A DNA stretch of 43,760 nt from a virus. The stretch is taken from the IMG/VR virus record IMGVR_UViG_3300009068_000067, positions 1 through 43,760 of that record, one strand, 5' to 3'. Positions 1,622-29,499 of the stretch are shown in pieces. Under the pieces are notes generated by a model, which was given only the letters and a program-made list of their open reading frames with translations, searched no databases and had not been told where the DNA came from. The translations under genes were made by a program, and so were the position numbers. Each line of letters starts with the position of its first letter. The stretch's first letter is position 1.

Positions 1622-1631
1622 GAGCATTTAA

Positions 1632-4257: not shown

Positions 4258-4282
4258 TAGCCCAACCAACAAGGAGAAAGCT

Positions 4283-5862: not shown

Positions 5863-5864
5863 CC

Positions 5865-5957: not shown

Positions 5958-5960
5958 TAA

Positions 5961-7235: not shown

Positions 7236-7675
7236 ACCTAGAACTAGCCGCTGAACTGTGCCGCCGGTATGAAGGGTATCGGGCCAAGCCCTACCTTTGT
7301 CCGGCTGGCGTAGCTACGATTGGCTATGGTTCTACTTACTACGCAGATAAACGCAAGGTGACTTTAGAAGACCCACCGATGGATGAACCTACGGCACGGG
7401 CGCTTTTGATGATTGAGCTTGAGCATACGTACCTACCCGGTGTTCTGCGTAACTGCCCCGGCTTAATTACGGACGTTCGTAAGTGCAATGCCATCGTAGA
7501 TTTCTGCTACAACCTAGGCACAGGACGCTTGCAAACATCTACGTTAAAGAGGAAAATCAATGCCAATGATTGGGATGGGGCAAAAGAACAACTGATGCTC
7601 TGGACTAAAGGTGGCGGTCGGGTACTGCCGGGGCTATTAAAACGACGCACGGCTGAGTGCGCCCTACTGGATTGA
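7232..7675 (+). CDS. Endolysin, GH24 phage-type lysozyme
   Basis: The product is 147 aa. It cleaves the N-acetylmuramic acid to N-acetylglucosamine bond of peptidoglycan. The catalytic pattern Glu-8 aa-(Asp/Cys)-5 aa-Thr of P22-type lysozymes is present as E14, C23 and T29 in RYEGYRAKPYLCPAGVATIGYG; this is the Cys variant. IVDFCYNLGTG (about 87-97) matches the family's second conserved block, and the C-terminal GLLKRRTAECALL matches the usual RRxxE end. Length is normal for a single-domain enzyme. There is no signal peptide or signal-anchor helix, so release depends on a holin, consistent with the membrane proteins just upstream. The ATG overlaps the previous stop (ATGA). Confidence 0.93.
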   Translation: MNLELAAELCRRYEGYRAKPYLCPAGVATIGYGSTYYADKRKVTLEDPPMDEPTARALLMIELEHTYLPGVLRNCPGLITDVRKCNAIVDFCYNLGTGRLQTSTLKRKINANDWDGAKEQLMLWTKGGGRVLPGLLKRRTAECALLD

Positions 7676-7678
7676 CCG

Positions 7679-9814: not shown

Positions 9815-9816
9815 AC

Positions 9817-10068
9817 GTGTCACAAACCAACGTAGTTGCACCCAGCTTACCGCTTGCTCCGGTAGAATACGATCGTCAGTACATGGACAAGCTAACCAAC
9901 GTGTTGCGTCTGTACTTTAATCAACTGGACACCCCCGGCCCACTGGCTGGGTCAAGCATTAACTTGAACATAACTACCTTGCCAACTCAGGCTGATTTAG
10001 CTAACCTTCGGGTAGGAGATGTTTACCGTGACACAACAGCAGCAAATGCTTTAAAGATAAAGGTCTGA
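9817..10068 (+). CDS. Small virion-cluster protein
   Basis: The product is 83 aa and starts at GTG 9817; GGTAGGAG lies just upstream inside the end of the previous gene, which supports this non-ATG start. It is Leu- and Thr-rich with YMDKLTNVLRLYFNQLDTPG (helix, about 24-43) followed by LPTQADLANLRVGDVYRD (about 55-72), a short strand-turn segment I recall from small proteins next to structural genes in uncultured phages. It has no cysteines, membrane segment or signal. It probably belongs to the same transcription unit as the 711-aa protein and may be its partner. No function is known to me. Confidence 0.6.
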   Translation: MSQTNVVAPSLPLAPVEYDRQYMDKLTNVLRLYFNQLDTPGPLAGSSINLNITTLPTQADLANLRVGDVYRDTTAANALKIKV

Positions 10069-10069
10069 C

Positions 10070-12868: not shown

Positions 12869-12878
12869 GGAATAGATC

Positions 12879-13913
12879 ATGGCAACGACCCCAATACCAA
12901 CACAAGTACAAGAATATCAAACAGGCTTTGCGCCTGTTATTGAACCGTTTGCAACAAAACTGCTAGGCGACGCACAGTTACTAACTGATACTGACCAAAC
13001 CCCGTACATGCAGTACATGCGGGATCGTCAAGCGCAGTTTACGCCTTTACAGCAACAGTCGTTTGAGAACGCAGGGTTAATGCAGACTGCCCCTCAATTG
13101 GGCGATGCCACCGCTATGGCGGGCATGGCAGGTCTTGGCGCACTCAATACGCAGTACACGTTTAACCCATACCAGACACAACAGTTCACGGGAAACAACG
13201 TACAAGCGTACATGTCCCCCTACATGCAAAATGTGGTGGAGCGCCAGCAACAAGATGCTGAACGACAGTCTAAAATTGCAGGGCAAGCACAAGATGCCCA
13301 AGCCGCCCGTTCAGGTGCGTTTGGTGGTAGCGGTAACTATCTTATGCGTGGTCAAGCCGCAGGTAACTTAGCCCGTCAAAAGGGTGACATCCAAGCTCAA
13401 GGATTGCAAAACGCTTACCAGCAAGCCATGGGTCAGTTTAACCAATCGCAGGCTCAAAACCTAGCAGGCCAGCAACTCAACGCACAACAGCAACAGTATG
13501 GCGCGGGACTAGGACTTCAAGGTCTACAGACAGCCGGAACAATGGCTAATAACTTAGCCAACATCGGTCAGACACAGTACGGTCAAAACCTTGGTCTCTT
13601 GGACGTTCAGAATAAGTTTGGCGCACAGCAGCAAGGCCAAATGCAGAACCAACTGAATACCGAGTACCAAGACTTTTTAAACTACCAAAACTACCCTTAC
13701 AAGCAATTGGGTTTTATGTCTGACATGATTCGTGGTTTGCCTTTGACTCAGCAGTCTCAGACCATGTATGCACAACCCCCATCAATGATTCAACAAGCTG
13801 CCGGTTTAGGCATTACAGGTAAAGCATTGGGCGCGTTTGCAGGTGGCGGTGCTGTTGGCGATCGTCCTGCTGGTCTGGCAGACTTGGCAATCTACAGAAT
13901 GGGTCAGGATTAA
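12879..13913 (+). CDS. Gln-rich helical virion protein, probable internal core protein
   Basis: The product is 344 aa, with AAGGA eight bases before the ATG. It is extremely Gln/Ala/Asn-rich: YMSPYMQNVVERQQQDAERQ (about 108-127), AARSGAFGGSGNY (about 141-153), then long Gln-rich helices to residue 280. The C-terminus FAGGGAVGDRPAGLADLAIY echoes the Gly-Gly/LAD motifs of both neighbours. There are no cysteines, signal or membrane helices. Composition and position between a Gly/Ala-rich protein and a transglycosylase protein resemble the internal virion (ejection) cassette of short-tailed phages, where a small helical protein accompanies two large ones. Assignment is by analogy of gene order, not by a recognised domain. 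Confidence 0.6.
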   Translation: MATTPIPTQVQEYQTGFAPVIEPFATKLLGDAQLLTDTDQTPYMQYMRDRQAQFTPLQQQSFENAGLMQTAPQLGDATAMAGMAGLGALNTQYTFNPYQTQQFTGNNVQAYMSPYMQNVVERQQQDAERQSKIAGQAQDAQAARSGAFGGSGNYLMRGQAAGNLARQKGDIQAQGLQNAYQQAMGQFNQSQAQNLAGQQLNAQQQQYGAGLGLQGLQTAGTMANNLANIGQTQYGQNLGLLDVQNKFGAQQQGQMQNQLNTEYQDFLNYQNYPYKQLGFMSDMIRGLPLTQQSQTMYAQPPSMIQQAAGLGITGKALGAFAGGGAVGDRPAGLADLAIYRMGQD

Positions 13914-13916
13914 ATC

Positions 13917-16199
13917 ATGCAATTAGAAGAACTATCTAATATCTCTGACAATCTGGCCATGATGCCAGACCCTGCGTTGCAGCAGTTTGCGCAGATGCAC
14001 AAGACTGACCCCTACATGGTGTCTCTGGCGCTAAGCGAAAGCAACCGCCGCAAAGCATTACGTACAGCGTCTCAAGGGCAAGCCGGTGCCGCACCTCAAC
14101 CCAAAGTAGTTGACGCGGCTATTCAAGGCATGCGGCCTACTCCCGTTGCGGCCCCTATGGTTGCTCAAACACAGCTACCAGAAAACCAAGGCATAGCACG
14201 TATTCCTGCACCCAACATGCGGCACTTGGCTGATGGCGGTATTGCAGGGTTTGACGAAAGTTCAAATTCCCCCATGTCCCGCGAAAACTTAAACAACATG
14301 GGCAACACCGGTGGTATGTTTAATTACGCCCAAGACGGTGGTGGTGTGGTGCGTATGTCTGGCGGGGGCGTTCCCGGCTATGCAAAAGGCGATAAGGTGG
14401 TGGATTACCGCCAAGCCATCATTGACGAAGCTCAAATGCAAGGCGTGCCTGCGGCTGTAGCTTTACAAATTTCTGGTGTTGAAAGTAACTTTGACCCTAA
14501 AGCCAGACCTATTGATCCAAGGACTGGTAAACCACGCTCTTCTGCTACAAGTTTTTTCCAAGTAGTAGATGACACGTTTAAAGGCTTGGGCGGTGATCCT
14601 AAGAAACGTAACGACCCTATGGAAAATATCCGTGTGGGCGTTAAGTCTCTTGCACAAAACCAAGCCGCATTGACAAAAAAACTGGGACGCGCACCTCAAC
14701 CACAAGAACTGTACACAACTCATTTCTTGGGCACAGATACAGGGTCTAAACTTTTATCTGCCGACCCCAACACACCTGTTAGCGCGTTCTTGGATAAAGC
14801 CGATCCTAAAAACAAAGAGAAAATTCTTACTGCCAATCCAGAAGTGCTAGGCGGTAAGAAGACCGTTGGTGATGTGCTTGCATGGACGCAAAAGAAAATG
14901 GCGCCTGTATTAACAGCGGCTATGCCTATTGGTACTGCGCAAGCCGGAGAGCCGCCAAAAATGCAAGCCGCAGCCCCTGTCGATACTAGCTTGGCCGCAC
15001 AGATTCCCGGCCAGTCTGCACAAGCGCCTGCGTCTAACTATGACCAAACCAACTCGTTCTTTGGGCGAATGGCTGACAAGATGGGCATTCCTTTGGAAGC
15101 TCAACGTCAAATTAGTACAACATTAAACGCCCCCACACCGCTGGCTCCTGTAGTTGGCTCAGCTAAATCTGGTTCTGGCATTGTTGCTTTGGGTGAAAAA
15201 CTTGGTGACAAACTTGGGTTTTTGCAAGGGCCTAAAGGCCGTATGTCGGCGCAAGAAATTGCTGCATTGCAAAAAGAGTCTGGCGGTTTAAAGGCACTCG
15301 AAGCATCACAACAAGTTACAAAAGACGCACAAGCCGCTGGCGCTACATTGGAAGAGCAAGAGTATCTACGTAAGATGATTGAAGCTAATCGGGCCAAAGA
15401 AGCGGCAGACAAATACAGCAAGGCTTCTAATATTGCAGAAGCTTCGCAGTTACGAGAAGCTGGAGATGTTGCTACGGCTCAACGTTTATCCCAGACTGGC
15501 CAACAAGCTCAAACCGCAGGCCGTGCGGAGTCGCTTGCAAACACAGTGTTACCTACTAATAATGCAGCACCTGCGGCTGGTGTAGCGCCGGGAGCAATTC
15601 CGTTTAAAGGTATTGACAAGAATGAACTTGAGCGCATGCAGGAGGCTAACCAAGCTCCAATGACGCGTGACGATATTGTCAAAGCCGCTGAAGACGTAAC
15701 GCCTGTTAAAGAACGCAAAGGCTTTAGCAACGACGATTTGTTAACTTTAGGTTTAAGTCTGCTTGCAAGCAAATCTCCAAACTTTATGACTGCGCTTGGC
15801 GAAGCCGGATTGGCTACCGTTGCTGGTAAGAAAGAACGTGAGAAGACTGAGCGCGAAGCGACTAAGTCTGGAGTTGAACTAGATTACATGAAGGCACGCA
15901 CCAAAGAAGCTGAAGCAACTGCCGCGCTTATTGAGCGTGGTGGTAAAGAGAAGAAGATGGAGTTGGAAGCTGAGAAGATGATCCAAAGCCATATGACTGA
16001 TTGGATGAAGAGTATGGAAGGCAAGATGGGTGCGTTGGGTGCGGAAGGGCCTTTGGCTAAACAACGTGAAGAAGATCGTGTTCGCACAGCCATCTATGCA
16101 AGCTTGGGACTTAAGAATATAATGCCTTCAACATCCGCTTCTTCGGGTGTAGGGTTGTCAGCCTCTGACTCCGCACTAATCAATAAATATCTTAGGTAA
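13917..16199 (+). CDS. Internal virion protein with lytic transglycosylase (SLT) domain
   Basis: The product is 760 aa. Residues about 165-300 are an SLT-type lytic transglycosylase: QAIIDEAQMQGVPAAVALQI, then GVESNFDP with catalytic E189, SSATSFFQVVDDTF (208-221) in place of the usual GLMQ block, and YTTHFLG (266-272). Such domains cleave peptidoglycan glycan strands so that phage DNA can cross the wall during entry. Before it lie LADGGIAGF (104-112) and VVRMSGGGVPGYAKGD (144-159), motifs shared with neighbouring virion proteins. After it comes a long Ala/Lys/Glu-rich helical region to the C-terminus. There is no signal peptide, as expected for a protein packaged in the capsid. It lies immediately upstream of the giant virion gene. 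Confidence 0.78.
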   Translation: MQLEELSNISDNLAMMPDPALQQFAQMHKTDPYMVSLALSESNRRKALRTASQGQAGAAPQPKVVDAAIQGMRPTPVAAPMVAQTQLPENQGIARIPAPNMRHLADGGIAGFDESSNSPMSRENLNNMGNTGGMFNYAQDGGGVVRMSGGGVPGYAKGDKVVDYRQAIIDEAQMQGVPAAVALQISGVESNFDPKARPIDPRTGKPRSSATSFFQVVDDTFKGLGGDPKKRNDPMENIRVGVKSLAQNQAALTKKLGRAPQPQELYTTHFLGTDTGSKLLSADPNTPVSAFLDKADPKNKEKILTANPEVLGGKKTVGDVLAWTQKKMAPVLTAAMPIGTAQAGEPPKMQAAAPVDTSLAAQIPGQSAQAPASNYDQTNSFFGRMADKMGIPLEAQRQISTTLNAPTPLAPVVGSAKSGSGIVALGEKLGDKLGFLQGPKGRMSAQEIAALQKESGGLKALEASQQVTKDAQAAGATLEEQEYLRKMIEANRAKEAADKYSKASNIAEASQLREAGDVATAQRLSQTGQQAQTAGRAESLANTVLPTNNAAPAAGVAPGAIPFKGIDKNELERMQEANQAPMTRDDIVKAAEDVTPVKERKGFSNDDLLTLGLSLLASKSPNFMTALGEAGLATVAGKKEREKTEREATKSGVELDYMKARTKEAEATAALIERGGKEKKMELEAEKMIQSHMTDWMKSMEGKMGALGAEGPLAKQREEDRVRTAIYASLGLKNIMPSTSASSGVGLSASDSALINKYLR

Positions 16200-16204
16200 C
16201 CGCC

Positions 16205-19200
16205 ATGGAAATCCGCCAAGTCCTTGAAGCCCTCCGCAACGCAGATGCAGCAGGTGATAAGGAGGCGGCAAGGCGACTGGCTGAGATAGCTAGCCAAATG
16301 ATGGGGGGCGCAAAGTCCCCCAAAGACACGCCCAAAGAAGAAACTTTGCTTGGCAGTGCTACCCGTGGGCTTAAGTCCATGATAGGTAGTGAGCAAACGG
16401 GCCTTGCCTCTTTGCTTGACGCTAACAAAGCCGCTGAAGAAGGTCTAGCACGGCAAAAGAAAATTGCCGAAGAGCACCCATCCGAAGACGCATGGGAAAG
16501 CGTTAAAAAAGTTTACCAAGAAAAAGGTGTTCTACCCGCCGCAGCCGAATACGTTCGGCAAGTCCCTTACGCTATTGCCGGACAAACCCCACAATTAGCG
16601 CAAAGCATGGCAGGCGCCCGTATTGGTGCCGCCCTTCCTGTGCCCGGAGGAACGATTGCTGGTGCATTTGTTCCTTCTTTTGCTCAACAGTATGGCGGTT
16701 TTCTTGAAGCGCAAGCCAAAGAACAACAAGCCCGTGGCGAACCTGTTGACGTAAGCCGTTTGAAAGCTGCAGCCGCAGCAATTCCAGCTGCTGCTATTGA
16801 CGTTGCCGAAACGCTCATTCCTATGGGCCGAGGCATGATTAAGTCTATTTTTGGCCCCGGCGTTGAAAAACTTCTTGCTCGTGGCGCTACCGAAGAAGCT
16901 GAAAAATTAGCACGCAGTGCGCTGTCTAAAGAAGGTTTTTTAAAGACGGCGGCCAAAGGTACAGCGCGTGGTGCTGCATTTGAAGTTCCCGGTGAAGTTA
17001 TACAACAAGTGCTTGAAAGGGCGCAGTCTGGCCAAACTTTATTAGATGAAGACGCAATTGCAGACTATGGACGCACAGCTTTTCAAACCACGCAATTAGG
17101 CCCATTAGGCGCAGTTGGTAGGTTTCAAAATAAATCCGCGGCGCGAAAAGAAATTGCCCAGCAACAGGAAGTAGCGCGTCAAGAAGATCAAATGCGTCAG
17201 TTGCAACAGCAAGAGATGCAAGAAGAACAAGACCGTGTAGCCAAAGAAATTGAGAAACAGCAGGCTGAAACCGCTAAACAACAAGCCATTGCCGCTAAAG
17301 CAGAAGAAAAGCGTCTAACCCAAGCTAGAAAACTAGGTACGCCTGAGTTGTTGGCGCAGATGGGCGATGAAACAATAGTTGATTACAACAACAAAGGCGT
17401 TAGTAAATACTCACTGCTCCCTGACGCAGAGCGTGCGCGTACTGAACAGCTTAATAGCATAGCCAAACAAATGGGCTATACCGATGCCGAGGTAGCTGAT
17501 AAACCGTTTGACACTCTTCACGGCATGCTTCGTGAGCGCGCTACTACGGACTTGGAACAAGCTAAACGTGTTGTGCCGGACTTGTTAAACCAATTGCAAG
17601 ACGCTAGGGCCAAGCAGGACATGCAACGGGTTATCTCACTGTCCAAACAGCTTGAGAAAATGGTGCCGGCAGAGGAGAGCCTCAAAGGTACGCTTAAACA
17701 TTTAGATAAACTAACCCCTGCCGAAGCCGATCTAGGTTCGGTACGCAAAGCGTTGGATAAAGCATTGGACAACGGCGACTTCGCCAAAGCCCAAACACTA
17801 GCCGCACAGTTAGAAAAACTACAGACCACGCAGACTGGGCTTGAGCGTAAAACACCCAGCGTTTCGTTTCCGGGCGAAGTCAAGGCACTGCCCACCGAAC
17901 AACTGGACATGTTTGCCCCCGGTTTTGAGGAGCGCTTTAAACAAGAAGACATTGAAGAACTGCAGAACCGTGGCGCTTCTGTAAGCGCTCAACCCAGCGT
18001 TGAAACAGCCGCGCAAAAGAAAGCCGCCGAGCAACAGACTGCGTTGTTTGAAAGCGGACAAGAATACGAAGAAGTTATTAAAACTAAAGAAGAGGGTAAG
18101 AAAAAAGCCCTCACTCCTGAAGAGTATGCAGACTCACTGAGCCGCGGTATTGACCCTGACTTTGTTGGCCCTGAAGCAAGTACTGGCAAAGCGGCACCTA
18201 AAGTTCTGTACCGCGAAGTACCCAAAGAGCGTGCACCCACGGACATTGGAACGCTTACATCTACACCAGCCGCAGGCAAACTGCCTACTGGCCCCACTGT
18301 ACGCATACCCTACACCGTTGACGAAAAGGGTGTCAGCCGTGACCTGACAGAGAAAGAGGCCAAGGATCTTTTAGAACAAGAGCCCAAGGTTGCCAAGACG
18401 GGCGTAGACGAAGCCATTGACTCAGGCATTATCAATTCAGAAGTCAAAGACATTCTCGGTCTTAAAGGCGTTGGCAACAGAAAGCTAGACCTTAACGTAA
18501 CCGCAGACGCAGAGTTTGTCGAAGGTAAATTGCGTGCCAAGCTGGATGCCAGCAAACAGAAAGCGCAAGAGCTACTAGATCAGTACATGGCGGATCCGTT
18601 TGCAGAAAACAATCTGTACGACACAGAAGGCAACCTGTCCGAAAAAGCCAAGGAAATCCTGTGGCGTGACATGCAGGCGCAGGAACTTGAGCGCCTACTT
18701 AAGCATATTGAAGAAGGTAAACGTGGCCGCCGTACTGCGGCTGGAGAAGAACGCCTTGCCGAGAAGGTAGTTGCCGCACCAGAACGTAAAGCAACTATTG
18801 ACACTACGCTATCACCCATCGAGAAGATGGACGCCAAAGATGCCAATGAGTTGGCACAGGTCATGGGCGTGAGCGGCATTGCAGAACTTAAAGCCGTAAA
18901 CAACGAAGAGATCAGCGCACAGCGCCATACGCTGGAAGCTAGACGTCAAAAACAAGCTAAAGACAATGCTTACGACAAGTTGCTCGAAGCGTTAGAAACC
19001 AAACGCAAAGCCAAAGATGCGCCACACAAATACGATTTAATGTATTTGTCTAAGCTGCGTACCCAGTATGTACAAGCGGCATTGAAAGAAGCGGCACATT
19101 TGCGTGCGGCTCAGAGACAGTCACCCCTGTCTAGCGCCCAGATTCTGCAAGCTACCAACGACATGTACGACTCGCTCAAAGAGTTGAGCACTCGGTATAT

Positions 19201-22200
19201 AGCAAAGCCTGTTAAAGAAACTGTTGTTACCAGCGTCAACAAACTGGAGAAGATGCAAGAGGCGTTGGCTGAGTTAAGTAAAAAAGACTATGCAAAATCT
19301 CCTGCGTTAACTGCAAAACGTGAGGCTCTGATAGCTAATATTAACAAGCTAGTTGAGAGCCAGCAGAAGCCAATTCGCAACAAGATTAAAGCCAAGCAAC
19401 AGGAGTTGATGCGTCTACGCGATCAAATGGAGCGCTATCGTCGTGAAGATTTAGAGCCTGCTCGTCAAAAATGGCTGGCCATGCCAGAGGGCCCAGTCGG
19501 TAGTCAAGCATATATTGCTCGCGATCAAATGCAGGGCCGTTATTTGTTGCGTAAAAAGAAGTTTGACGACTACGCAGATCACGATTCAAGAGTTACGCAA
19601 GACATTACAGACCTGATGAAGCGTCTGGACGAGCCTAGGCTCACCAAAGGCAGGAAAGAAAAAGACATACGTCCCACAAGCCAGCGCCCATTTGCTGACC
19701 GCCAAAAAGCAATTGAGACAATTAAAGAACAGTTGGAAGCGGCTGAAGCCAAGTTGTTGGCTAAGCCTGAGCGCAAGCGTGTAGAAGTGTCTGAGATTGA
19801 GCGCCGTCAGGGATTGCTGGCGCAGATCAAACAAAAGCAAGACAAGCTTGACTCGTTGAAAAGCAAGCAAGGTGAAACCGAAAACCGTGAAAGACTGGCT
19901 AAAGAAATTCAAGGACTGACTGCACGCTACAACAAACAGCAAGCAGAACTTGGTGAGCGCCAGAAAGCGCCTGAGACACCGCTTAACTTTAAAGAACGAC
20001 GCGACGAAGCCGCTGAATTGGAAACGCAGATCAAGGAAGCGTTTGCCGATAAGAGTTTAGCAACGCAGCTTAAAGAAAAGCAACGCCAGTTAGACGACAT
20101 AAAAGATCAGCCCGGTGCCGAAGAAGCCCGTAAAAAATTGACTGCAGAAGTTGATGCGCTAAATGTTCGTTTAAATAAACAATACGAGAATATTTCTAGA
20201 TTGCTGGCACGTATGCAGCAGTTGGATTTGGGTGAAGACTTAGCGTCTGAGCTTGGCACTGATCTTGAGTACAACCAGCGGGTGTTGGAGCGTGCCATCA
20301 GAGACACGCAAGGCGAACTTGACGCGCTTGTGGGTATTGCCCCCGGTAAAGAAGTTAAAGTTGGCGCAAAAGTCCCTCGCCGTGGGTTGTCTGAAGAGCA
20401 ACAACAGGAACTTAAGCGGCTCAACAAGCGCATGGAAGCGCTACAAAAGAGCCTTGCACAGAATCAAGCATCGCTTGACGACATTGGACTCTTTGCCGCA
20501 AAGGGTGCCGGTGCTGCTCAGTTTAAATTTGAAGGCCCTGAAGGACAAAAGCGTGCCGTGCAGGTGGAAACACCCGACTTGTTTGCGCCTAGTGAAGAAC
20601 AAGGCGTTATCTTTGAGACGCCCGAACAGTTCTTGGGTTCTTCCAAATACGGCAAGATTGCCAAGCTGCGTAAAGAAGTTAACCGCCTTGCCAGCATCAT
20701 GCCTGTGCGGTTTGAAGATTTGCAGAAAGCGCGTACTGATTACGTGACTGCCCTTGGTGCACTAGAAAATCTACGCAAACGACCTGAAGCTACGCAGTTT
20801 AATTACTACGCCGTGTTGTCAGGACAGTACACGTTTCAAGCGGACAGGATGCGTAATAAATCCAAAGAGTCTTACGCTTCTGGCAACAAACGTATACGTT
20901 CTCAATGGACAATGCAAGACGCAGAAGCCAAGCGTTTGCAAGAAAAGGCTGACCTGTACGAAAAAATGGCTAACAGCGAACAGTTGTTGCAGATTAGCAA
21001 ATACTCTACGGAACTTCAACAAATTGTTGTTGAAGCCAAACTTCAAGGTTTGAACGTAGAAGAAGACAGTCGCGAAATTGGTTTGTCTTTAGCGCAGAAA
21101 AATGTCGAGCGTTTAAAAACCGCCATGAATGACATGGACGAGTTGGCACGCAAAAATGGCACGACTGAGCCAATCATAAAAGAAAAACCAGAAGACCTTC
21201 CCGAAGGCGACGCGCTACAAAAACAAATCGGTTCTACTAACAAACAAATTGCGGCTATACGTAACCGCATGAAATTGGAAGAGCCAGATCAACGTACACA
21301 ATCTGAGTACGAAATTCAAGGACTGCTTGGCTATCGCCGTGATTTAGAGACAGAACAGTTTATGCGCACGGCTGAAGGCCATTTATTTCAGTTAAAGCAA
21401 AACTTTTTAAAAGAGTACAGCACTGACGTTAATCCCGCAGATCCGTTAAAAACGGCTTTGGGCCGTGCTAGGGCTAAATCGCGTGAGTACATTCCTGAGA
21501 CTGCAACCAAGGATGCTGCAGAGTTGGAAGAGTTGTTGAAGTCGCAAAAAGAAGTTTCAGACGCTTTAGCCAAGTACAAAGCTGCCGCACCATCTGATGA
21601 AGATGTAGCAAAGAATTACTGGATGGGTCGTTTTGAAGTTGCAAAACTTGAAGCAGATTTAGCCAAGCTTAGCGACAACGTTGCTGAAGCACAAGCAAAG
21701 ATTACTGCTGCTCAAGATGCAGAAGTTCAAATGCTTCGACGTGCAGACACTGCACTTAAAGACGCATGGGCTAAGCTTAAAGAAGCTGAACAAGCCCTTA
21801 CGTATAAAGACGAAAAACAAGCTGTAGATTTGGCTAAGCGCAGGAAAGCGCTTATTTTGACTCAAAAAACTCTAGACGATGCCAAAGAAACTTCTCGTCT
21901 AAAAGCCAAAGCACAGCAAGAGCGCATCCAAACAGGTGCGGGCATACCCAGCACCAAGGTCACCCGCGTCAAAGCACTGAGCGAAGAAGGCCGTAAGGCA
22001 GCTTACGCTTCTGGTAGGTTTGGCGTGTCTCGTGAAGTTCAAACTATGAACGCTGGCTGGACTGTGGAGTACACAACCGACGGCCCCGTCTTTAACTACA
22101 ACCCTAAAGACGACGCAGAAGCTGATGAGAAAGATAGAAAACGTAAGAACGTTACGGCTAAGAAAGCGTACGACTCGCTTAAGAAAGCTCGCAAAGCGTA

Positions 22201-25200
22201 CAGAAATGCGCTTACAACACTAGACCAGCGCCGTATTGACGTAACCAAGGAAAAACTGGATGCCCAAGAACTTTTTATGGAAGACTTGGCAGGCGCTCGG
22301 TTTGTATCTGTAAAAGAAGTGGTTGGTTCTACGCCCACAGAACTGGATACTAAATGGCAGGTTTCTCAAGAAATTAACCGCCTGCCCAAGAAAGAAATCA
22401 CTACGTACACCAATGCGCGTGCTGAGCAAGAAAAGCTACGCAAAGAAATTGAGCATGTACGCACGCTTAAAGGGCAGACAGAGATTAGCCAGCAACGTAC
22501 TGCTGTGCGTAATGCCCAAAACCAATACGACAAGATTGCTTACGAGTTGTCTGAAGTTAAGCGTAAGCAAGAGTACGACATCAGCACGCTTAGCGAGTCG
22601 GCTTACGACCGCCGTGTTAAAGATTTAACGCAACAACTTGACAAGACTAATGCTCGGTTGACTGAATTATTAACACGTTTGAAACCAATGGAGGTTAAGA
22701 ACGAGGAGCGCCTTGCTGACCTGACTAAGCGTTACTTTGCGGTTAAGAAGACTGCTGACGAAATTTTGCTGGGCAAACCAGAAGAAGATACAAAGGGTGC
22801 TACTCGTGCCCCTGTTGCAGAGAACGTTAAAGACATGAAGGGTGCCATGCGCACACTGGCGCGTGACGAGAAGAACTCAGACATTAAACCGTTGATTAAG
22901 CAAAACCAAAAGCTTAAGAGTGCGTCGTCTGAGGAACAGCGTATGCGTAAAGCCGCCGAAGGTTTTGCCAAGAAAGACCGTTTGGTGACCATGTACTCTG
23001 AAGGTTCGCCTGAGTACAACAAGGCTTTGAAAGAAGTTACTGGCGGTTATGTCAAGCGCTTGATTGACAGTTCTGATGACACAGACGGCACAGTGTTTCG
23101 TGTGGAAGCGGAGCCGGTTCTAAATCCTATAGCCGAAGCAGAAGGTAAAGCTATTGCAGACAAGTTTGCAAGCAAACTACCAAAAGACGTAAAGTTTATT
23201 TACGCTCCGACACTTAGTCAGGCGCCAGTTAAATATTTGAAAGCGTTAGCTAACGCTGGTGTAAACGTAGAAACGTCAGCAGTCAAAGGTGCGGTGTTAC
23301 CTGACGGTACGATTGTTGTTATTGGCGATCAGCACACCGATGCGCTGGACTTAGAAAAGACTTTAATTCACGAAGCCATAGGTCACTACGGTGTGGACGT
23401 GGTGCTCGGCCCCCAAGGCATGATGGACTTGACCAAAGCCATCCGCACTACGGAAGGCGGCATTTTTGGCATGGCTAAAGCTTTGGGCGTTGAGGAAGAT
23501 GTGTTGGCATCAGCCACTGCATGGGAGCAACGCGCTGTTGAGGCTGAACAAAAGGGCGATGTAGAGACTGCGCAGAAGATCCGCCGTATGGGAGAAATCC
23601 AATCTGTGCGTGAGATGCTGGCGCACATGCAGGAAGCCACAGTCAACGAGACGTTTGTCCAGAAGGCTGGCCGGTATATTAAGATTGTGCTTGGCGCTCT
23701 GCGTCAATGGTTACGCAGTATGGGGATGACAAGCTTGTCGAATGTCAGTACAAATGATTTGTACTACACGATGTTCCAAGCCACCAAGCGTATGCAACAA
23801 GAGTTTGCAGGCACGTACAAGTCACCAACAGGTTTGATCTCTTTGGCGACTAAATGGGCCACGCCTGAGTTGGCTGCGGCAGGCTCTGTTGTTGACAAAA
23901 TGATTGCCAAAGACAAGAACCTGTACGACAAGATTAAAGCCAACGGCTCTGGTTTGGCGTTTGAGACGCAGATGGTTGACCGTTATGCCGGCTTTGAGCG
24001 TTTGGTCAGGGACAAAAATGTGGGCATGGACAAGCTTAAAGGTTTCCAAATGTTGTACTACTTACGTATGTACGACCAGCGCATGAACTTTGTGGCTCAA
24101 TCTGTTGGCAATGGTGCACTGCAACGGGTTGAAAAAATCCGTGCTGATGGCCGTAAAGAGTACATCATTGAGAGCGTCAAGGGGCCAAGCATCCGTAGCG
24201 TGGCAGAGATTCTTAAACGTGCCGCACCTTTAGTTGGCAGTCCAGATGGCGCAAGCCGTTTGTTTACTTTGTATTTGGCTGGCATTCGCGCTAAGAGGCC
24301 GGGCGTAGGCTTAGAAGCTTTAGGCTTTAACGGCAAGATTACACAGGCCGAACTTGATAGCGCTAACCGAGCTATTGAGAATACCCCCGGCCTTAAGGAT
24401 CTGTTTGACACGGCACGCGCTGAATACAACGCATACAACGAGGGGCTGGTTAGGTTTGCGGCTCAGACGCATGCGCTTCCACGCGCTGTTGTAGAGAAGC
24501 TACTTGCGTCCAAGGACTACATTCCGTACTACCGCCAGCGCAACGGCGTTGTGGAACTGTTAATTGGCGGAGAAAACCCAGTCAAGATTGGTAACATTAA
24601 AGAGCAGCCGTACTTGCAAGAGTTGGTTGGCGGCGATGCGCCCATCCTTGACTTCATGACCAGCGCTGTCCAAAACACAAACTTGTTGACGGACATGGCT
24701 TTGCGTAATCAGGCTACCAGCAACGCTGTTTTTGAGTTGGTGGACATGGGTCTGGCAACCATTACGCGTAAACCTATTGCGGGTACTAACGTGGTTCGTT
24801 TTAAAGTTGAGCCTGATCCTAAGAACGAGAAAGACAAAGACACAGGCGACCGTTATGCGCTGATTGCTACGGATAAAGCAGGCATTCCTGCGGACATTTT
24901 GGTCAAAGGCATGGAAGGTATCCCGTCTCAAATGCCGTTTGCCTTGCGTGCTATGGCTGCTCCCGCCACGTTTTTGCGTAAGGCTGTGACAGCATCGCCT
25001 TTGTATGCGGCCAAGCAGTTGTTCCGTGACTCTTTAGCCGCCCCGCTGTTGTCCGGTGCTGATTTTTTCCCTGTTACTGGAGCGCTTAAAGAAATTGGTA
25101 GCGCGACCAAGGGCACGTTAGAGAGCCGAGGCATCACAGGCGGTCAGGTGTTTACTGGCGGTAGCGCAGACTTGACTAAGATTTTGCGCGACATTACTGC

Positions 25201-26485
25201 TGGCCGAGGTGTGTTCTCTGAACTATTATCTAGGGCAGAAGCTATCTCTATGGAAGCTGATGCGCTTACGCGTCGCGCTCAATACAACAGCTACATCAAG
25301 CAGGGCTTGTCTGAGATGGAAGCCACGTACATGGCGCTTGAGTCCATGAACTTTAATAAGCGTGGTGCATCGCCTAGCATTCACTGGGCTAACGCACTGA
25401 TCCCATTCTTTAACGCACAGATTCAGTCGATGAACGTGCTGTACAAAGCCATGACAGGTAACCTGCCGTTTAATGAGCGCTTGAAGATACAGGAGAAGCT
25501 GTTAACTCGTGGCTTGATGATTGCCGCTGGTACGTTGGCATATGCTGCCGCAATGCAAGACGACGAGGCTTACAAGAACGCTACGCCCGATCAGAAGTAT
25601 GGCAATTGGTTTGTGCGTATTCCCGGCGTAGAAGAGCCGCTTCGCATACCGATTCCGTTTGAGATTGGCTACATCTTCAAGGCTTTGCCAGAGGCGCTTT
25701 ACAACTCCATGATGAACGAGCACGGCAGCGAAGAGGCGGTCAAGGCGTTTAACCAAATCTTGATACAGACTATTCCCGGCGGTACTAGCATGGCCACGGT
25801 GGACGTTGGTGGGTTTAAGATCCCTACGCTACTGCCCATACCGCAAGCCATGAAGCCTATCATCGAGACTTCGCTTGGCAAATCGTTTTACACAGGGCGC
25901 GACATTCTGTCCAAGGGTGAGCAACAATTGTTGCCAGAAGCGCAGTTCCGTGAGAACACTACCGAGATTGCCAAGGCGTATGGCTCTTTGGTTGGGGCGT
26001 CCCCCGTCAAGGTCGAGGCGTTTATTCAAGGTTACACAGGCACAATGGGCTTGGCATTCTTGCAAGCGGTTAGCTCACCATTCTCGTCCGAAGGTTCGCC
26101 TGAGAAGACTTACAAGCGCTTGTCTGAACGTGCAGTAATTGGCGGTGCGTTCCAACCTAACGATGCAGGCGAGATTATTAACAGCACGTTTGAGCGCATG
26201 AATGGGTTCTCTAAAGTCAAACAGACAGTGGACGACTACATCGAGCGTGGTGAGAAATCCAAGGCTATGGCGCTGATTAGCGAACGTGGCAAAGAGTACA
26301 TGCTGGGCGAAATCTCTGGCGACTTTACCAAGCAGATTGGCGAGTTGACCCAGTATGAGCGTGCCGTGCGTGCCTCAACGCTAACGCCAGAAGAGAAGCG
26401 CGAACGGTTGGCTGAGATACGGCAGATGAAAATCAAGCTGTCTTCAATGGTGCGCGGGGCAGTCGATAGAACATTACCCCAGTAA
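16205..26485 (+). CDS. Giant polyvalent virion protein with LPD38-like region
   Basis: The product is 3426 aa with no internal stop. Residues about 110-310 include a Gly/Ala/Pro-rich hydrophobic segment (GARIGAALPVPGGTIAGAF). From about 310 to 2300 it is almost continuous charged coiled coil (Lys/Glu/Gln/Ala). Near 2387-2396 is LIHEAIGHYG, a zincin-like HE-x-x-GH motif (H2389, E2390, H2394). From about 2680 to the end it resembles the 'large polyvalent protein associated' LPD38 type: RLFTLYLAGIRAKR, KDYIPYYRQRNG, and FNKRGASPSIHWANALIPFF (about 3050-3069). Polyvalent proteins are multi-domain phage proteins packaged and injected with DNA to condition the host. Packaging and proteolysis here are inferred. 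The last 53 bases overlap an antisense gene. The ATG follows the previous stop by five bases, with only a weak AGGT upstream. Confidence 0.8.
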   Translation: MEIRQVLEALRNADAAGDKEAARRLAEIASQMMGGAKSPKDTPKEETLLGSATRGLKSMIGSEQTGLASLLDANKAAEEGLARQKKIAEEHPSEDAWESVKKVYQEKGVLPAAAEYVRQVPYAIAGQTPQLAQSMAGARIGAALPVPGGTIAGAFVPSFAQQYGGFLEAQAKEQQARGEPVDVSRLKAAAAAIPAAAIDVAETLIPMGRGMIKSIFGPGVEKLLARGATEEAEKLARSALSKEGFLKTAAKGTARGAAFEVPGEVIQQVLERAQSGQTLLDEDAIADYGRTAFQTTQLGPLGAVGRFQNKSAARKEIAQQQEVARQEDQMRQLQQQEMQEEQDRVAKEIEKQQAETAKQQAIAAKAEEKRLTQARKLGTPELLAQMGDETIVDYNNKGVSKYSLLPDAERARTEQLNSIAKQMGYTDAEVADKPFDTLHGMLRERATTDLEQAKRVVPDLLNQLQDARAKQDMQRVISLSKQLEKMVPAEESLKGTLKHLDKLTPAEADLGSVRKALDKALDNGDFAKAQTLAAQLEKLQTTQTGLERKTPSVSFPGEVKALPTEQLDMFAPGFEERFKQEDIEELQNRGASVSAQPSVETAAQKKAAEQQTALFESGQEYEEVIKTKEEGKKKALTPEEYADSLSRGIDPDFVGPEASTGKAAPKVLYREVPKERAPTDIGTLTSTPAAGKLPTGPTVRIPYTVDEKGVSRDLTEKEAKDLLEQEPKVAKTGVDEAIDSGIINSEVKDILGLKGVGNRKLDLNVTADAEFVEGKLRAKLDASKQKAQELLDQYMADPFAENNLYDTEGNLSEKAKEILWRDMQAQELERLLKHIEEGKRGRRTAAGEERLAEKVVAAPERKATIDTTLSPIEKMDAKDANELAQVMGVSGIAELKAVNNEEISAQRHTLEARRQKQAKDNAYDKLLEALETKRKAKDAPHKYDLMYLSKLRTQYVQAALKEAAHLRAAQRQSPLSSAQILQATNDMYDSLKELSTRYIAKPVKETVVTSVNKLEKMQEALAELSKKDYAKSPALTAKREALIANINKLVESQQKPIRNKIKAKQQELMRLRDQMERYRREDLEPARQKWLAMPEGPVGSQAYIARDQMQGRYLLRKKKFDDYADHDSRVTQDITDLMKRLDEPRLTKGRKEKDIRPTSQRPFADRQKAIETIKEQLEAAEAKLLAKPERKRVEVSEIERRQGLLAQIKQKQDKLDSLKSKQGETENRERLAKEIQGLTARYNKQQAELGERQKAPETPLNFKERRDEAAELETQIKEAFADKSLATQLKEKQRQLDDIKDQPGAEEARKKLTAEVDALNVRLNKQYENISRLLARMQQLDLGEDLASELGTDLEYNQRVLERAIRDTQGELDALVGIAPGKEVKVGAKVPRRGLSEEQQQELKRLNKRMEALQKSLAQNQASLDDIGLFAAKGAGAAQFKFEGPEGQKRAVQVETPDLFAPSEEQGVIFETPEQFLGSSKYGKIAKLRKEVNRLASIMPVRFEDLQKARTDYVTALGALENLRKRPEATQFNYYAVLSGQYTFQADRMRNKSKESYASGNKRIRSQWTMQDAEAKRLQEKADLYEKMANSEQLLQISKYSTELQQIVVEAKLQGLNVEEDSREIGLSLAQKNVERLKTAMNDMDELARKNGTTEPIIKEKPEDLPEGDALQKQIGSTNKQIAAIRNRMKLEEPDQRTQSEYEIQGLLGYRRDLETEQFMRTAEGHLFQLKQNFLKEYSTDVNPADPLKTALGRARAKSREYIPETATKDAAELEELLKSQKEVSDALAKYKAAAPSDEDVAKNYWMGRFEVAKLEADLAKLSDNVAEAQAKITAAQDAEVQMLRRADTALKDAWAKLKEAEQALTYKDEKQAVDLAKRRKALILTQKTLDDAKETSRLKAKAQQERIQTGAGIPSTKVTRVKALSEEGRKAAYASGRFGVSREVQTMNAGWTVEYTTDGPVFNYNPKDDAEADEKDRKRKNVTAKKAYDSLKKARKAYRNALTTLDQRRIDVTKEKLDAQELFMEDLAGARFVSVKEVVGSTPTELDTKWQVSQEINRLPKKEITTYTNARAEQEKLRKEIEHVRTLKGQTEISQQRTAVRNAQNQYDKIAYELSEVKRKQEYDISTLSESAYDRRVKDLTQQLDKTNARLTELLTRLKPMEVKNEERLADLTKRYFAVKKTADEILLGKPEEDTKGATRAPVAENVKDMKGAMRTLARDEKNSDIKPLIKQNQKLKSASSEEQRMRKAAEGFAKKDRLVTMYSEGSPEYNKALKEVTGGYVKRLIDSSDDTDGTVFRVEAEPVLNPIAEAEGKAIADKFASKLPKDVKFIYAPTLSQAPVKYLKALANAGVNVETSAVKGAVLPDGTIVVIGDQHTDALDLEKTLIHEAIGHYGVDVVLGPQGMMDLTKAIRTTEGGIFGMAKALGVEEDVLASATAWEQRAVEAEQKGDVETAQKIRRMGEIQSVREMLAHMQEATVNETFVQKAGRYIKIVLGALRQWLRSMGMTSLSNVSTNDLYYTMFQATKRMQQEFAGTYKSPTGLISLATKWATPELAAAGSVVDKMIAKDKNLYDKIKANGSGLAFETQMVDRYAGFERLVRDKNVGMDKLKGFQMLYYLRMYDQRMNFVAQSVGNGALQRVEKIRADGRKEYIIESVKGPSIRSVAEILKRAAPLVGSPDGASRLFTLYLAGIRAKRPGVGLEALGFNGKITQAELDSANRAIENTPGLKDLFDTARAEYNAYNEGLVRFAAQTHALPRAVVEKLLASKDYIPYYRQRNGVVELLIGGENPVKIGNIKEQPYLQELVGGDAPILDFMTSAVQNTNLLTDMALRNQATSNAVFELVDMGLATITRKPIAGTNVVRFKVEPDPKNEKDKDTGDRYALIATDKAGIPADILVKGMEGIPSQMPFALRAMAAPATFLRKAVTASPLYAAKQLFRDSLAAPLLSGADFFPVTGALKEIGSATKGTLESRGITGGQVFTGGSADLTKILRDITAGRGVFSELLSRAEAISMEADALTRRAQYNSYIKQGLSEMEATYMALESMNFNKRGASPSIHWANALIPFFNAQIQSMNVLYKAMTGNLPFNERLKIQEKLLTRGLMIAAGTLAYAAAMQDDEAYKNATPDQKYGNWFVRIPGVEEPLRIPIPFEIGYIFKALPEALYNSMMNEHGSEEAVKAFNQILIQTIPGGTSMATVDVGGFKIPTLLPIPQAMKPIIETSLGKSFYTGRDILSKGEQQLLPEAQFRENTTEIAKAYGSLVGASPVKVEAFIQGYTGTMGLAFLQAVSSPFSSEGSPEKTYKRLSERAVIGGAFQPNDAGEIINSTFERMNGFSKVKQTVDDYIERGEKSKAMALISERGKEYMLGEISGDFTKQIGELTQYERAVRASTLTPEEKRERLAEIRQMKIKLSSMVRGAVDRTLPQ

Positions 26486-26648
26486 AGCCTTCGTAGATGC
26501 CCGTCTTAGCACGGGCATCTAGTACTCGGCACAGGACTGCCTTGCGCAGCCCTAGTTCTCGAACTTCGTCCGTATCTAGGCAGGGGATAAAGAACCCCTG
26601 CCCTTTGTCAAGCGTCTCCCACGGGAAGCGGATTGATGATACTTTCAT
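26433..26648 (-). CDS. Small phage protein antisense to the end of the giant gene
   Basis: The product is 71 aa, reading right to left. It overlaps the primase-helicase gene by 41 bases at its start and the opposite-strand giant gene by 53 bases at its end. The sequence FPWETLDKGQGFFIPCLDTD (about 8-27), then LDARAKTGIYEGFTGVMFYR (about 43-62), follows a pattern I recall from short proteins in other uncultured phages, where one or two strands carrying a GQGFF(V/I)PCLDT block are followed by a basic helix. That recurrence and the coupling to the upstream gene argue against it being a chance frame. A single cysteine and no membrane segment are seen. Function is unknown; possibly a replication accessory given its operon. 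Confidence 0.65.
   Translation of the reverse strand: MKVSSIRFPWETLDKGQGFFIPCLDTDEVRELGLRKAVLCRVLDARAKTGIYEGFTGVMFYRLPRAPLKTA
26494..26521. terminator. Perfect hairpin at the convergent gene junction, possible bidirectional terminator
   Basis: TAGATGCCCGT and ACGGGCATCTA form a perfect 11-bp stem with a 6-base loop (CTTAGC), nine bases after the stop of the giant gene and inside the coding sequence of the small antisense gene. No clear run of T follows on either strand, so it is not a classical intrinsic terminator. It may slow polymerase, protect 3' ends or work with Rho. The location between two convergent operons supports a transcription-ending role. Confidence 0.55.
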
Positions 26649-29499
26649 CTAGTTCGTCCATCTTTCGTCTAACGCGCATTGCTGGAACCCGCATGGCGGG
26701 GCCTTTGGTCTTGGAAGTCATGTTCTTCCTGAGATACTCAATCTGAAACGTGTCCTCAAGCTGGCGCTTAAACGAAGCGTACCCAAAACTCATAGAAGCG
26801 CAGTAGGACTTGAGTAGGGTTTCCTCAATGAAGTAGTCGATGTAGCCGGGTGTTATGCCGTGCTCCACACGCCCAAGAATCTTGTTGCGTGTAATCGTCT
26901 GGTCAATGATCTGACCGCTACCAAGCTCTGCCAACAAACCGCCTGTGCTTGGTTTAACTACCACAAAGCTGCCGTAGCTCTCTCTAGTGTAAGCGTTTAG
27001 CACATCCTCTGCGGTGCGCAAGCTGTGCTTCATACTGGAGCGCATGGATGTCACAACCTTCTTAAACGCGTTCAACACGGGGCGCAGGGGGATGTCCACA
27101 ATACCTGCCGCTTTGAAAGCATTACGCGCATGGACTGCGGTTCCAATACTGGCCATCCAAAAGCGCTCGTCATTGGTAGCGTTGAACTCCGTGTACATGG
27201 CGGCTACTGCCTCACGCACAGTCGTAGGGAACTCATCAGCATGCTCGACCATGTACTCGACTAGCTTGTAGCCAGCCACGCCATAGTTAGACTGCAAAGA
27301 CTTGATGATCTCAATCTCATGAGGCTCCCATGTCAGCGCTTCATCAAACGTAAACTCAAGCAGGCGGCGAAGCTCGCCCTCTGATGAGTGGTTACGCCCA
27401 CCGGTCAAGTAGTCCACAACGTGCGTGTTGGATGACATCAAGCACACAGTCATCCATGTAGAGAGGTTTAGGCGTTCCTTGTTGGAGCCAGACTCCATAC
27501 GCTCCTTGCCCCTGCCCTCAGTCATATCCAAGAGGAACTCAGGTAACCACTCAGGGGCGGCTCTGTTCTTGGCGGTGATCTCATCCGTGATAAGCGGGTG
27601 GCTGTTAAGAAGTCCAAGGCGCTGTTGCATAGCGACAGGAGAAGTGCTCTTGCCTGTGCGGTAATGCGTTGGGTGACCCCAGACTGATGCGGCGGCTTCA
27701 AGAGACAACGTCTTGCCTGTACCCGACTCGGTACTAGCGCAGTGGTATGTCATCCCGTAGATGCCTGTATAGCGCATGAATGGTGCGCCAGCACCGGCAA
27801 GGATTATGGCTATGTGCCCCCACATTTTCTTGGCGATCAACATGTTCATGAAGTCACGCCAAGCCTCAATGGTTCCCTTGGGTTCGGTGTTTACTGTGAT
27901 GTTCTCCAGACCCGGCATTGGAACCTTGACTGGGGGTTTACCCTTACTGAAGATACGCCCTGCGTATACGTAAGTGTTGTCTGCCTGCCAGCCGTAGCTG
28001 TCAGGAACCTTTATAGCAGGTCTGCTTGTGCTTGCTTCTTCCACGGATGCCCTCACATATTCAAATAGGTTTTTGTCATTGTTAGCGCCAAAAGCAGCCA
28101 CAATATTTTGGTTTGCTAGCGCCTTCACCGTTTCGTCTTTGCTAACCACCGCCTTTTGAGGCATGGTTACGTTCACTGCACCATCAGGCTTGAGAGCGAT
28201 CATGTGCACTGTGTGATCCCCGTTGCTGTTGAGAATGTCAACAACAAACAGTTCGTAAGGCAGTAGCATGACTTGCTTCTTGGACTTAACACCCTCGTCA
28301 TTCTCTACCGTGCGTTCCATGAACGTGCCGCCGTTGGCTCCATAGGAGTAGCCGCGTGGCGGTGTTGGGCGCATCACCTTGATGGTTTCAGTCGCAGTGA
28401 CATTGCTATCACTCGAAAGCTTTACCTCAATTTCTTTCTCCTCGACCTCGACAGCCAACTCACGACCTAAGATCAGTGGGTTGGTAATCTTGCCCCAGTG
28501 TGTACATGATGGGCATATACCGGGGTTCTCGGAGTCCATCTTGGTGCAGGGGTATGGGCCTTTGATGCTCTGAAGCTTTTGATTCATGCGCTCAGGCTCA
28601 TACGGGTGCATCTTGCTGAGCCACACCGCCGCCTTATTGCCATCCTCACAGACCTTCGTCCACGACAGCAGTCCCCTCCAGATCGGCTCCATGCCGTCCT
28701 CGGCGGCATGCTCCACGTAGTTGGCCAACTGACCACAACCGCGGTCATTCTGCGTAGCAAGCCAGATCGGTTTGAACTTGGTGATGCTGTTCTCGTACAG
28801 CTTAACTGTCGTAGCCGAGGGCGTTGCCTTGGTTGGGCGCTGTCCGGGCAAGTCAAGTGCGGGCATAGCCACAGGCTCATATACTGAGCCTGTCAGTTTT
28901 TCTCTGATGAGAGAAGCCAGCCCCTCGAAGCTAAACAAATCGCCTTCAGTCAGTATGCGCACAGGGCGCGGCGTTGCGTACTTCTTCTTAAAGTTGGTGG
29001 TGTCTGGCACACGCAAGACACGGGCGGCGTCAGCCGTCACGGTCATGTCGATGGCCATGTTTTCCTGTCTACACAGGCGTTTAAAGTTCTCAGCCACGGG
29101 CTTCCAAGAGTCGATGGGTACAGCCTCAGTCAGTGGCCAGTAGCAGTGCAATCCGCCACCAGAACCAACGACATAGGGGTTGCCTAGGGCATCCATACCA
29201 GTCTTATCTAAAAACGCGCTGAGAGCTTGTGCCGCATCTTTCTTCGATGCGTAGCCATCCATGTCAATGAACAGGGATTTAACGTGCCTAGCGTTCACCG
29301 CTAGACGGTTGTCATCGTCGCCAAAGGTAGCCAAGGCAAAGTAAATATCGAACTTACTGTCGTGCCAACGTTTGATTGGCGCTGTGGTTTCTTCCAGAGT
29401 ATGCACAAAGGCATGCTCCTTCTTTGTAAGCTCTGCTACGCAGTACCGACCAAATTCTGGCGGCGGCAGAACAACCGCTAAAAACTCAAGCGGAGTCAT
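26608..29499 (-). CDS. DNA primase-helicase (AEP-type primase plus P-loop ATPase)
   Basis: The product is 963 aa. Residues about 40-200 fit an archaeo-eukaryotic-type primase: FIDMD (77-81; D79, D81), GSGGGLHCYW (112-121; H118) and AIDMTVTADAARVLRVPDTT (149-168; D151). A cysteine cluster (C319, C330, C333) may bind zinc. The C-terminal half has a P-loop ATPase of DUF927-like type: Walker A ESGTGKT (592-598), Walker B HPLITDE (635-641; D640, E641) and a sensor-like CLMSSNTH (687-694). It would unwind the fork and make primers. AAGGA sits about five bases before the ATG. It ends the replication operon, with its 3' end overlapping the next small gene. Order and motifs agree with phage primase-helicases; helicase family is less certain than primase. 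Confidence 0.85.
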   Translation of the reverse strand: MTPLEFLAVVLPPPEFGRYCVAELTKKEHAFVHTLEETTAPIKRWHDSKFDIYFALATFGDDDNRLAVNARHVKSLFIDMDGYASKKDAAQALSAFLDKTGMDALGNPYVVGSGGGLHCYWPLTEAVPIDSWKPVAENFKRLCRQENMAIDMTVTADAARVLRVPDTTNFKKKYATPRPVRILTEGDLFSFEGLASLIREKLTGSVYEPVAMPALDLPGQRPTKATPSATTVKLYENSITKFKPIWLATQNDRGCGQLANYVEHAAEDGMEPIWRGLLSWTKVCEDGNKAAVWLSKMHPYEPERMNQKLQSIKGPYPCTKMDSENPGICPSCTHWGKITNPLILGRELAVEVEEKEIEVKLSSDSNVTATETIKVMRPTPPRGYSYGANGGTFMERTVENDEGVKSKKQVMLLPYELFVVDILNSNGDHTVHMIALKPDGAVNVTMPQKAVVSKDETVKALANQNIVAAFGANNDKNLFEYVRASVEEASTSRPAIKVPDSYGWQADNTYVYAGRIFSKGKPPVKVPMPGLENITVNTEPKGTIEAWRDFMNMLIAKKMWGHIAIILAGAGAPFMRYTGIYGMTYHCASTESGTGKTLSLEAAASVWGHPTHYRTGKSTSPVAMQQRLGLLNSHPLITDEITAKNRAAPEWLPEFLLDMTEGRGKERMESGSNKERLNLSTWMTVCLMSSNTHVVDYLTGGRNHSSEGELRRLLEFTFDEALTWEPHEIEIIKSLQSNYGVAGYKLVEYMVEHADEFPTTVREAVAAMYTEFNATNDERFWMASIGTAVHARNAFKAAGIVDIPLRPVLNAFKKVVTSMRSSMKHSLRTAEDVLNAYTRESYGSFVVVKPSTGGLLAELGSGQIIDQTITRNKILGRVEHGITPGYIDYFIEETLLKSYCASMSFGYASFKRQLEDTFQIEYLRKNMTSKTKGPAMRVPAMRVRRKMDELDESIINPLPVGDA

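Follow-up and report, generated by a model that had tools for sequence, protein, structure and literature searches.

The window analysed here (the whole stretch of DNA under study, 43,760 nucleotides of an IMG/VR virus record) carries a rightward virion module whose last gene, a single uninterrupted ATG frame of 3,426 codons, encodes a protein of 3,426 aa, hereafter the giant. The frame of 10.3 kb and 3426 residues described in a previous sequence-only reading of this DNA is thereby borne out. That reading also placed almost a quarter of the window within this frame, which holds for the length of the record; the record itself is probably a fragment of a virus genome, because it lacks a PF03237 terminase match, present in 16 of the 19 records searched of the phage group, and because relatives reach 57-68 kb. 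The model phrog_2, also tried for the terminase, matched 0/19 records and was set aside as the wrong model. The parts of the giant and its neighbours are listed in Table 1. Elsewhere in the window, a 2OG-Fe(II) oxygenase-type gene lies within the virion module (4283-4999; phrog_81, E 5.1e-16), a 674-aa amidoligase-like gene runs to the record edge (41731-43755; PF12224, E 2.5e-6), and three virion-type proteins encoded before the giant (10070-16199) share Gly-rich stretches ('LADGG', 'GGGVVRM', 'AGGGAVGD'). Between the giant gene and its convergent neighbour, two perfect hairpins with 10-bp and 7-bp stems (26495-26520 and 26580-26601), without a clear T run, represent a candidate bidirectional terminator.

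Table 1. Features of the giant gene and its neighbours (window coordinates; residues are those of the giant)
Feature	Position	Strand	Evidence
344-aa protein, PHROG 4287 'DNA ejection protein', two genes upstream of the giant	12879..13913	+	E 3e-15
760-aa SLT transglycosylase-domain protein, directly upstream	13917..16199	+	PF01464, E 8.4e-8
Giant ejection-type protein gene, whole	16205..26485	+	Intact frame; 56 single-frame relatives; codon-position pattern
N-cap, residues 1-340, Ala/Gly-rich, fastest-diverging among close relatives	16205..17224	+	blastp 31/56; iterated HMM 46/57; 54% vs 94% chassis (L002)
Middle, residues 341-2239, charged helical, patchy heptad-like periodicity, no recognised enzyme domain	17225..22921	+	Pfam; alignment in 5-7/56; periodicity
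Small block, residues 948-1005, middle piece common to several other middle clusters	19046..19219	+	hhalign, up to 98.6% probability (L026); lower in L025, L039 and L045 clusters
Putative zincin-like metallopeptidase domain, residues 2240-2543	22922..23833	+	Alignment A3; AlphaFold core pLDDT about 80; viral structure matches
HEAIGH (HExxxH) motif, residues 2389-2394	23369..23386	+	HExx(x)H in 57/57 family proteins
C-terminal chassis, residues 2544-3426	23834..26482	+	Conserved in 56/56 full-length relatives
Chassis core, residues about 3005-3093, aligning with the extreme C-terminus of N4-type vRNAPs	25217..25483	+	hhalign 74.3, P 2.7e-5, best of 66 tile comparisons
LPD38 (PF18857), residues 3120-3303	25562..26113	+	Pfam, E 1.2e-30
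DUF927 primase/helicase-type gene, convergent, marks the end of the virion module	26608..29499	-	Profile matches

Related loci were numerous in IMG/VR (79 in total), and 56 relatives whose single frame is intact (2,248-3,363 aa) were retained, frames running off contig ends being left out; together with the window protein they make up 57 proteins, 48 of which are distinct in sequence. When compared with the window protein by blastp, residues ~2581-3426 aligned in 55-56 of the 56 relatives, except for the last few residues, and the start of the chassis (2544-2580) aligned in fewer; residues ~61-300 aligned in 31, and the middle in just 5-7. An iterated HMM recovered the N-cap in 46 of the 57 proteins, query included, and an all-against-all comparison sorted the middles into 15 clusters that have some pieces in common. 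Since alignment coverage is split in this manner along the relatives, and the middles fall into separate clusters, the giant combines, at the sequence level, a rear end that stays constant, a front with looser conservation and a middle that varies. Amino acid identity with the close relative L002 was 54% in the N-cap, 83% in the middle, 95% in the zincin domain and 94% in the chassis. Giants are the rule in this family, and equivalents of 2,197-4,515 aa are found in N4-type phages, phiARM81mr, CF418P1, PTXU04 and JC1, contrary to the earlier claim that proteins of this size are rare in phages with genomes in this range.

The chassis, which displays 49-95% identity in alignment A2, includes the LPD38 domain, and this was the sole match at a credible E-value when the whole protein was searched against Pfam, PHROG and NCBIfam. 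With 107.4 bits against a curated cut-off of 27 bits, and model positions 1-183 of 189 covered, the LPD38-like C-terminus proposed from sequence was correct. The giant belongs to a known kind, the LPD38 phage polyvalent-type proteins, and its conserved unit extends beyond LPD38. A tblastn search with the window C-terminus matched 151 phage records, from which 14 chassis proteins were preselected for testing. The chassis HMM recognized the first seven of these (7/7), namely PTXU04 gp25 (E 9.3e-47) and the proteins of phiARM81mr, CF418P1, Pag-Yong1, Vibrio 1.232.O, HTVC034P and Page, whose hosts belong to Aeromonas, Vibrio, Achromobacter, Planktothrix, Bacillus and Pelagibacter. A broader chassis profile recognized the remaining seven (7/7), from BA3, VvAW1, HTVC033P, DC1, 45A6, BS-TP4 and the archaeal virus MetMV, the phage hosts being Thalassomonas, Vibrio, Pelagibacter, Burkholderia, Ruegeria and Bacteroides. 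The chassis protein of the 64-kb Bacteroides phage BS-TP4 reaches ~5,390 aa (record positions 1511-17686), and that of the Methanosarcina virus MetMV ~3,000 aa. Regarding structure, a search of PDB sequences with the C-terminal alignment returned just a designed bundle (E 0.45), and a poor AlphaFold model of 1,087 aa (mean pLDDT 62) gave nothing usable with Foldseek and VIA-align, with no significant PDB match.

Upstream of the chassis, an HExxH/HExxxH motif was found in 57/57 family proteins, as compared with a mean of 0.6 and a maximum of 3 in shuffled sequences; it lies at most 420 residues before the chassis in 46 of the 57, and further upstream in the other 11. The motif is absent from the chassis proteins of HTVC034P and Page. 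Alignment A3 displays invariant H150, E151 and H155 plus a downstream E231, and the AlphaFold model of the domain, which is good in the core only (pLDDT about 80), consists of strands 92-95, 120-125 and 131-134, a motif helix (141-156) and a later helix (214-238) carrying E231. The window protein thus presents the combination that we used to recognize a zincin, i.e., an HEXXH/HEXXXH helix and a glutamate on the next conserved helix, and PMC5512222 describes, for polyvalent proteins, an HEXXXH class of zincin with the glutamate on a later helix. The model matched no PDB structure at E<=0.001; among viral structure models, 6 matches were obtained at that threshold, the named ones being polyvalent-type, MuF, gp88-domain or helicase proteins. 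From these features, the domain would be proteolytic. The sequence-only reading had overlooked both the motif and the extent of the conserved chassis, which is much larger than LPD38.

The N-terminus had been credited with a hydrophobic segment, which in the transmembrane sense was not confirmed: in 19-residue windows, the Kyte-Doolittle mean peaks at 1.42, and no clear transmembrane segment was found. The fast divergence of the N-cap suggests a host-dependent contact or recombination. The middle is highly charged and helix-favouring, and amphipathic periodicity of 3.5-3.6 residues exceeds that of shuffled sequences in patches (about 950-1230, 1345-1570, 1625-1850 and 2070-2240); what remains of the proposed coiled-coil core of ~2000 residues is therefore a series of periodic patches in a charged, helix-favouring sequence, rather than a continuous coiled coil. 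Pfam searches revealed nothing at a credible E-value in the middle of the window protein, and no enzyme domain in 23 representative N-cap-plus-middle regions spanning all 14 other middle clusters, in which the weak and unconvincing matches were TPR_Edg1 in two, Mtf2 in one and DUF1843 in one. These results do not support the suggestion that the middle may hide several unnamed effector domains; regarding the segments named for them, residues 2240-2330 do lead into the zincin domain, and nothing was recognized at 640-720 and 1960-2010. Full-length hhalign comparisons among middle clusters yielded secondary matches that were mostly meaningless. The pentapeptide QLDMF at residue 566 resembles a beta-clamp-binding motif; strict motifs occur in 13 of the 57 proteins versus 4.8 expected by shuffling. 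A looser motif, [QG]Q..LF, often followed by PE, occurs 46 times versus 8.7 in shuffled sequences, in the middles of 39/57 giants; it apparently belongs to a conserved block, and the clamp idea was set aside.

The SLT transglycosylase gene lies directly upstream of the giant in 39 of the 45 loci with room for it, and the convergent primase lies downstream in 75/75. The upstream neighbours fit an ejection operon, and the gene order resembles that of N4: in the schitovirus records fetched, the virion RNA polymerase (vRNAP) gene is followed by convergent SSB, primase and exonuclease genes, and in schitovirus Zuri the gene before it is annotated as a lytic transglycosylase. In HTVC034P, the gene of the 1,229-aa chassis protein follows those for tail tubular A/B and an internal-virion-protein-B-like product and precedes the tail fibre, which is the place of T7 gp16; the likeness is one of position alone, in the corresponding slot of a T7-like gene order. 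A T7-type RNA polymerase (PF00940) was found in 0/19 records, with a positive N4 control (9.6e-15), and gave no match in PTXU04, phiARM81mr and HTVC034P, although this model matched only one place in N4 and would miss a vRNAP. The N4-type capsid model TIGR04387 matched 0/19 records, but its control likewise gave no match. Since no T7-type polymerase was found in these records and the window carries a sigma-factor-like gene (38082-38879; phrog_351, E 3.7e-20), early transcription probably uses the host enzyme, and a polymerase within the giant would therefore not be needed.

A resemblance between window residues ~3005-3093 and the last ~150 residues of N4 gp50 was first noted by eye. For its evaluation, a deep chassis profile of 29 diverse proteins (the family thinned to 15 of 54 sequences, plus 7+7 from named phages and viruses) was compared with 33 tiles from 13 vRNAPs, forward and reversed. 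The C-terminal vRNAP tile was the best, with a score of 42.0 (P 2.7e-5) and the next at 26.7. The same tile ranked first with each of three choices of block (probabilities of 60-74% and P values of 2.7e-5 to 8.4e-5, the runner-up tile having a P of about 0.006-0.01), in each half of the vRNAP set when split in two (P 2.2e-4 and 1.1e-4), and with a shallower first block profile (probability 18.8%). With block HMMs, the best match was collinear and C-terminal in 10 of the 11 vRNAPs reported (13 searched), and two vRNAPs outscored all 510 decoys reported. The match spans ~85 residues, and its block was picked once an initial whole-length hhalign run, whose single match at the vRNAP C-terminus had a probability of just 1.8%, and the by-eye resemblance were already known; the match depends on profile depth, as a reciprocal search with a shallow 8-sequence window cluster missed the correct place. 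The zincin part of the chassis HMM also matched N4 residues 2186-2410 (E 4.4e-6). Regarding the front of the protein, the best forward tile of the N4 N-terminal domain (301-600) scored at decoy level against the N-cap (21.6 vs 18-23), and a likeness of the N-cap to PTXU04, CF418P1 and Page seen by eye was dropped, the N-cap HMM having no match to them at E<=10. Taken together, the chassis core is likely homologous to the C-terminus of N4-type vRNAPs, the rest of the N4 helical C2 module being unmatched. Because no single-subunit RNA polymerase domain was detected in the giant (phmmer against PDB sequences, 0 at E<=0.01; no Pfam RNAP match), it is not classed as a vRNAP on sequence grounds. We found no paper tying LPD38 to the N4 C-terminus in a search with limited reach into subscription journals, and the link is new here.

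In the reading that we favour, and which we judge probable, the giant would be an ejection protein resembling N4 gp50 but lacking the polymerase, and the largest such protein of a podovirus-like phage. As the product of the last gene of the ejection operon, it would be packed in the head and expelled through a conduit built by the smaller ejection proteins. Its layout would follow that of N4 gp50, for which the order N-terminal domain, polymerase, zincin and helical C2 is given in PMC12633501: an N-terminal cap, an exchangeable middle, a zincin metallopeptidase and a C-terminal helical module, with a long middle, mostly helical and variable in sequence, standing in for the polymerase. The chassis would most likely bring the protein into the head, as reported for the N4 C-terminal domain; PMC5512222 gives the C-terminal region of the N4 vRNAP as needed for encapsidation and the N-terminal one for injection, and PMC4496689 cites unpublished data on these roles. 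The zincin would most likely cut the chain, its own or that of a head partner, around ejection, and the N-cap would be the likeliest membrane or ejectosome contact. Packaging and ejection of the window protein itself, and the role of each part, are inferred. The sequence-only reading had likewise proposed a protein carried within the capsid and passed on into the host, and this gains support from relatives, through the ejection-type and transglycosylase neighbours, the vRNAP C-terminus match, the essentiality of PTXU04 gp25 (PMC11879866), and the 4,515-aa JC1 gp69, reported in CsCl-purified virions with 51 unique peptides and the second-highest score (PMC9144972); JC1 gp69 is connected to the chassis via DC1 gp67, which was tested, and Bcep22 gp75, which both the DC1 record and PMC9144972 name, rather than by its own sequence. 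A point against this reading is that peptide fingerprinting assigned the PTXU04 virion bands to gp7, gp10, gp11 and gp12, and not to gp25, in the account of PMC6563267.

Unlikely, though the best placed among the alternatives, is that the giant carries effectors, its middle containing domains against host defence or for host modification that escaped detection, as in DarB-like relatives. Domains of this sort are indeed present in LPD38 relatives from isolates (MTase and ddrB-ParB in phiARM81mr, InPase and LPD3 in CF418P1), and the middle is the variable part of the family; conversely, neither the window protein nor the representatives of the other middle clusters displayed an enzyme domain, and the HTVC034P protein has just 1,229 aa. 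Moreover, PTXU04 gp25, with LPD38 as its sole Pfam match, is essential in a laboratory host according to PMC11879866, where its knockdown led to a large plating drop, which is more than an accessory effector would predict; the same source lists gp25 with the genes that, when expressed, were toxic or disturbed infection. We consider it more doubtful still that the giant serves as a scaffold in head assembly or in the inner core, its helices filling or organising the head and the protein itself never entering the cell. Such a role would suit the late-operon position, the long helical middle, the abundance of the JC1 protein in virions and the essentiality in PTXU04; however, ejection is the better fit for the zincin motif present throughout the family, for a gene position behind ejection-type and transglycosylase neighbours, and for the resemblance of the C-terminus to that of an ejected protein. 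That the long frame is a product of assembly, fusion or a missed frameshift has a negligible probability, as no supporting point was found and it is refuted by the 56 intact relatives from other assemblies; third-position codon differences from L002, L003 and L008 also outnumber those at the first and second positions in each of the four regions. The sequence-only reading had named a programmed frameshift or a sequencing artefact as grounds for its own refutation. The giant is a genuine virion-type protein and not a peculiarity of the window genome.

The proposed link of the chassis to the N4 C-terminus would supply a function hypothesis for LPD38, a domain known only by number. A 2025 preprint describes N4 C2 as a new fold without structural relatives, of unknown early role, possibly in transcription (PMC12633501). 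If the shared core is true, the first job of C2 would more likely be packaging or ejection, because the chassis occurs in giants without any recognised polymerase, and what marks a protein of 3,500 residues for the head could be tested via chassis swaps between coliphages. In a wider proposal, to which we give an even chance, the N4 vRNAP would be one case of a general and old ejection platform (N-cap, exchangeable middle, zincin and packaging chassis) present in phages of proteobacteria, including SAR11, of cyanobacteria, Bacillus and Bacteroides, and in a Methanosarcina virus; the middle of the window protein would then be a mechanical helical element, neither polymerase nor enzyme, and the chassis the packaging signal common to all.

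Among known systems, PTXU04 gp25 (2,197 aa), from an Escherichia podovirus, shares with the window protein the chassis, a zincin motif (HEIIVH) and the position as the last large gene of the virion module, and differs in its shorter length, a chassis identity of ~22% and a middle with no detected similarity. The 'DarB-like' giants of the Bcep22-like phages (JC1 gp69, DC1 gp67) resemble it in the chassis (DC1, E 1.8e-44) and in closing the virion module, JC1 gp69 being a virion component as described above; in contrast, the DC1 record annotates the chain of gp67 with transglycosylase, helicase and methylase domains as well. The LPD38 polyvalent proteins, as described by Iyer et al. 2017 (PMC5512222), have in common with it the C-terminal LPD38, the large size, the HExxxH zincin and the phage-only context. 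As in polyvalent proteins, which are encoded with phage packaging or virion genes, the giant has virion-type neighbours, with a terminase in 16/19 records, the window record not being one of the 16; these proteins also join at least two disparate activities per chain, whereas the zincin and LPD38 alone were recognized in the window protein, with no second biochemical activity recognized, though further domains may have escaped detection, and its conserved unit is a chassis of 880 residues, LPD38 accounting for 184. Finally, the giant differs from N4 gp50 (Schitoviridae) by the lack of a recognised polymerase domain and by the additional LPD38 and tail beyond the shared core, and the window differs from N4 in its sigma-factor-like gene and in that no T7-type polymerase was found; conversely, both proteins are alike in length, in their place in the ejection operon, in a zincin ahead of a helical C-terminal module, and in the chassis-core match.
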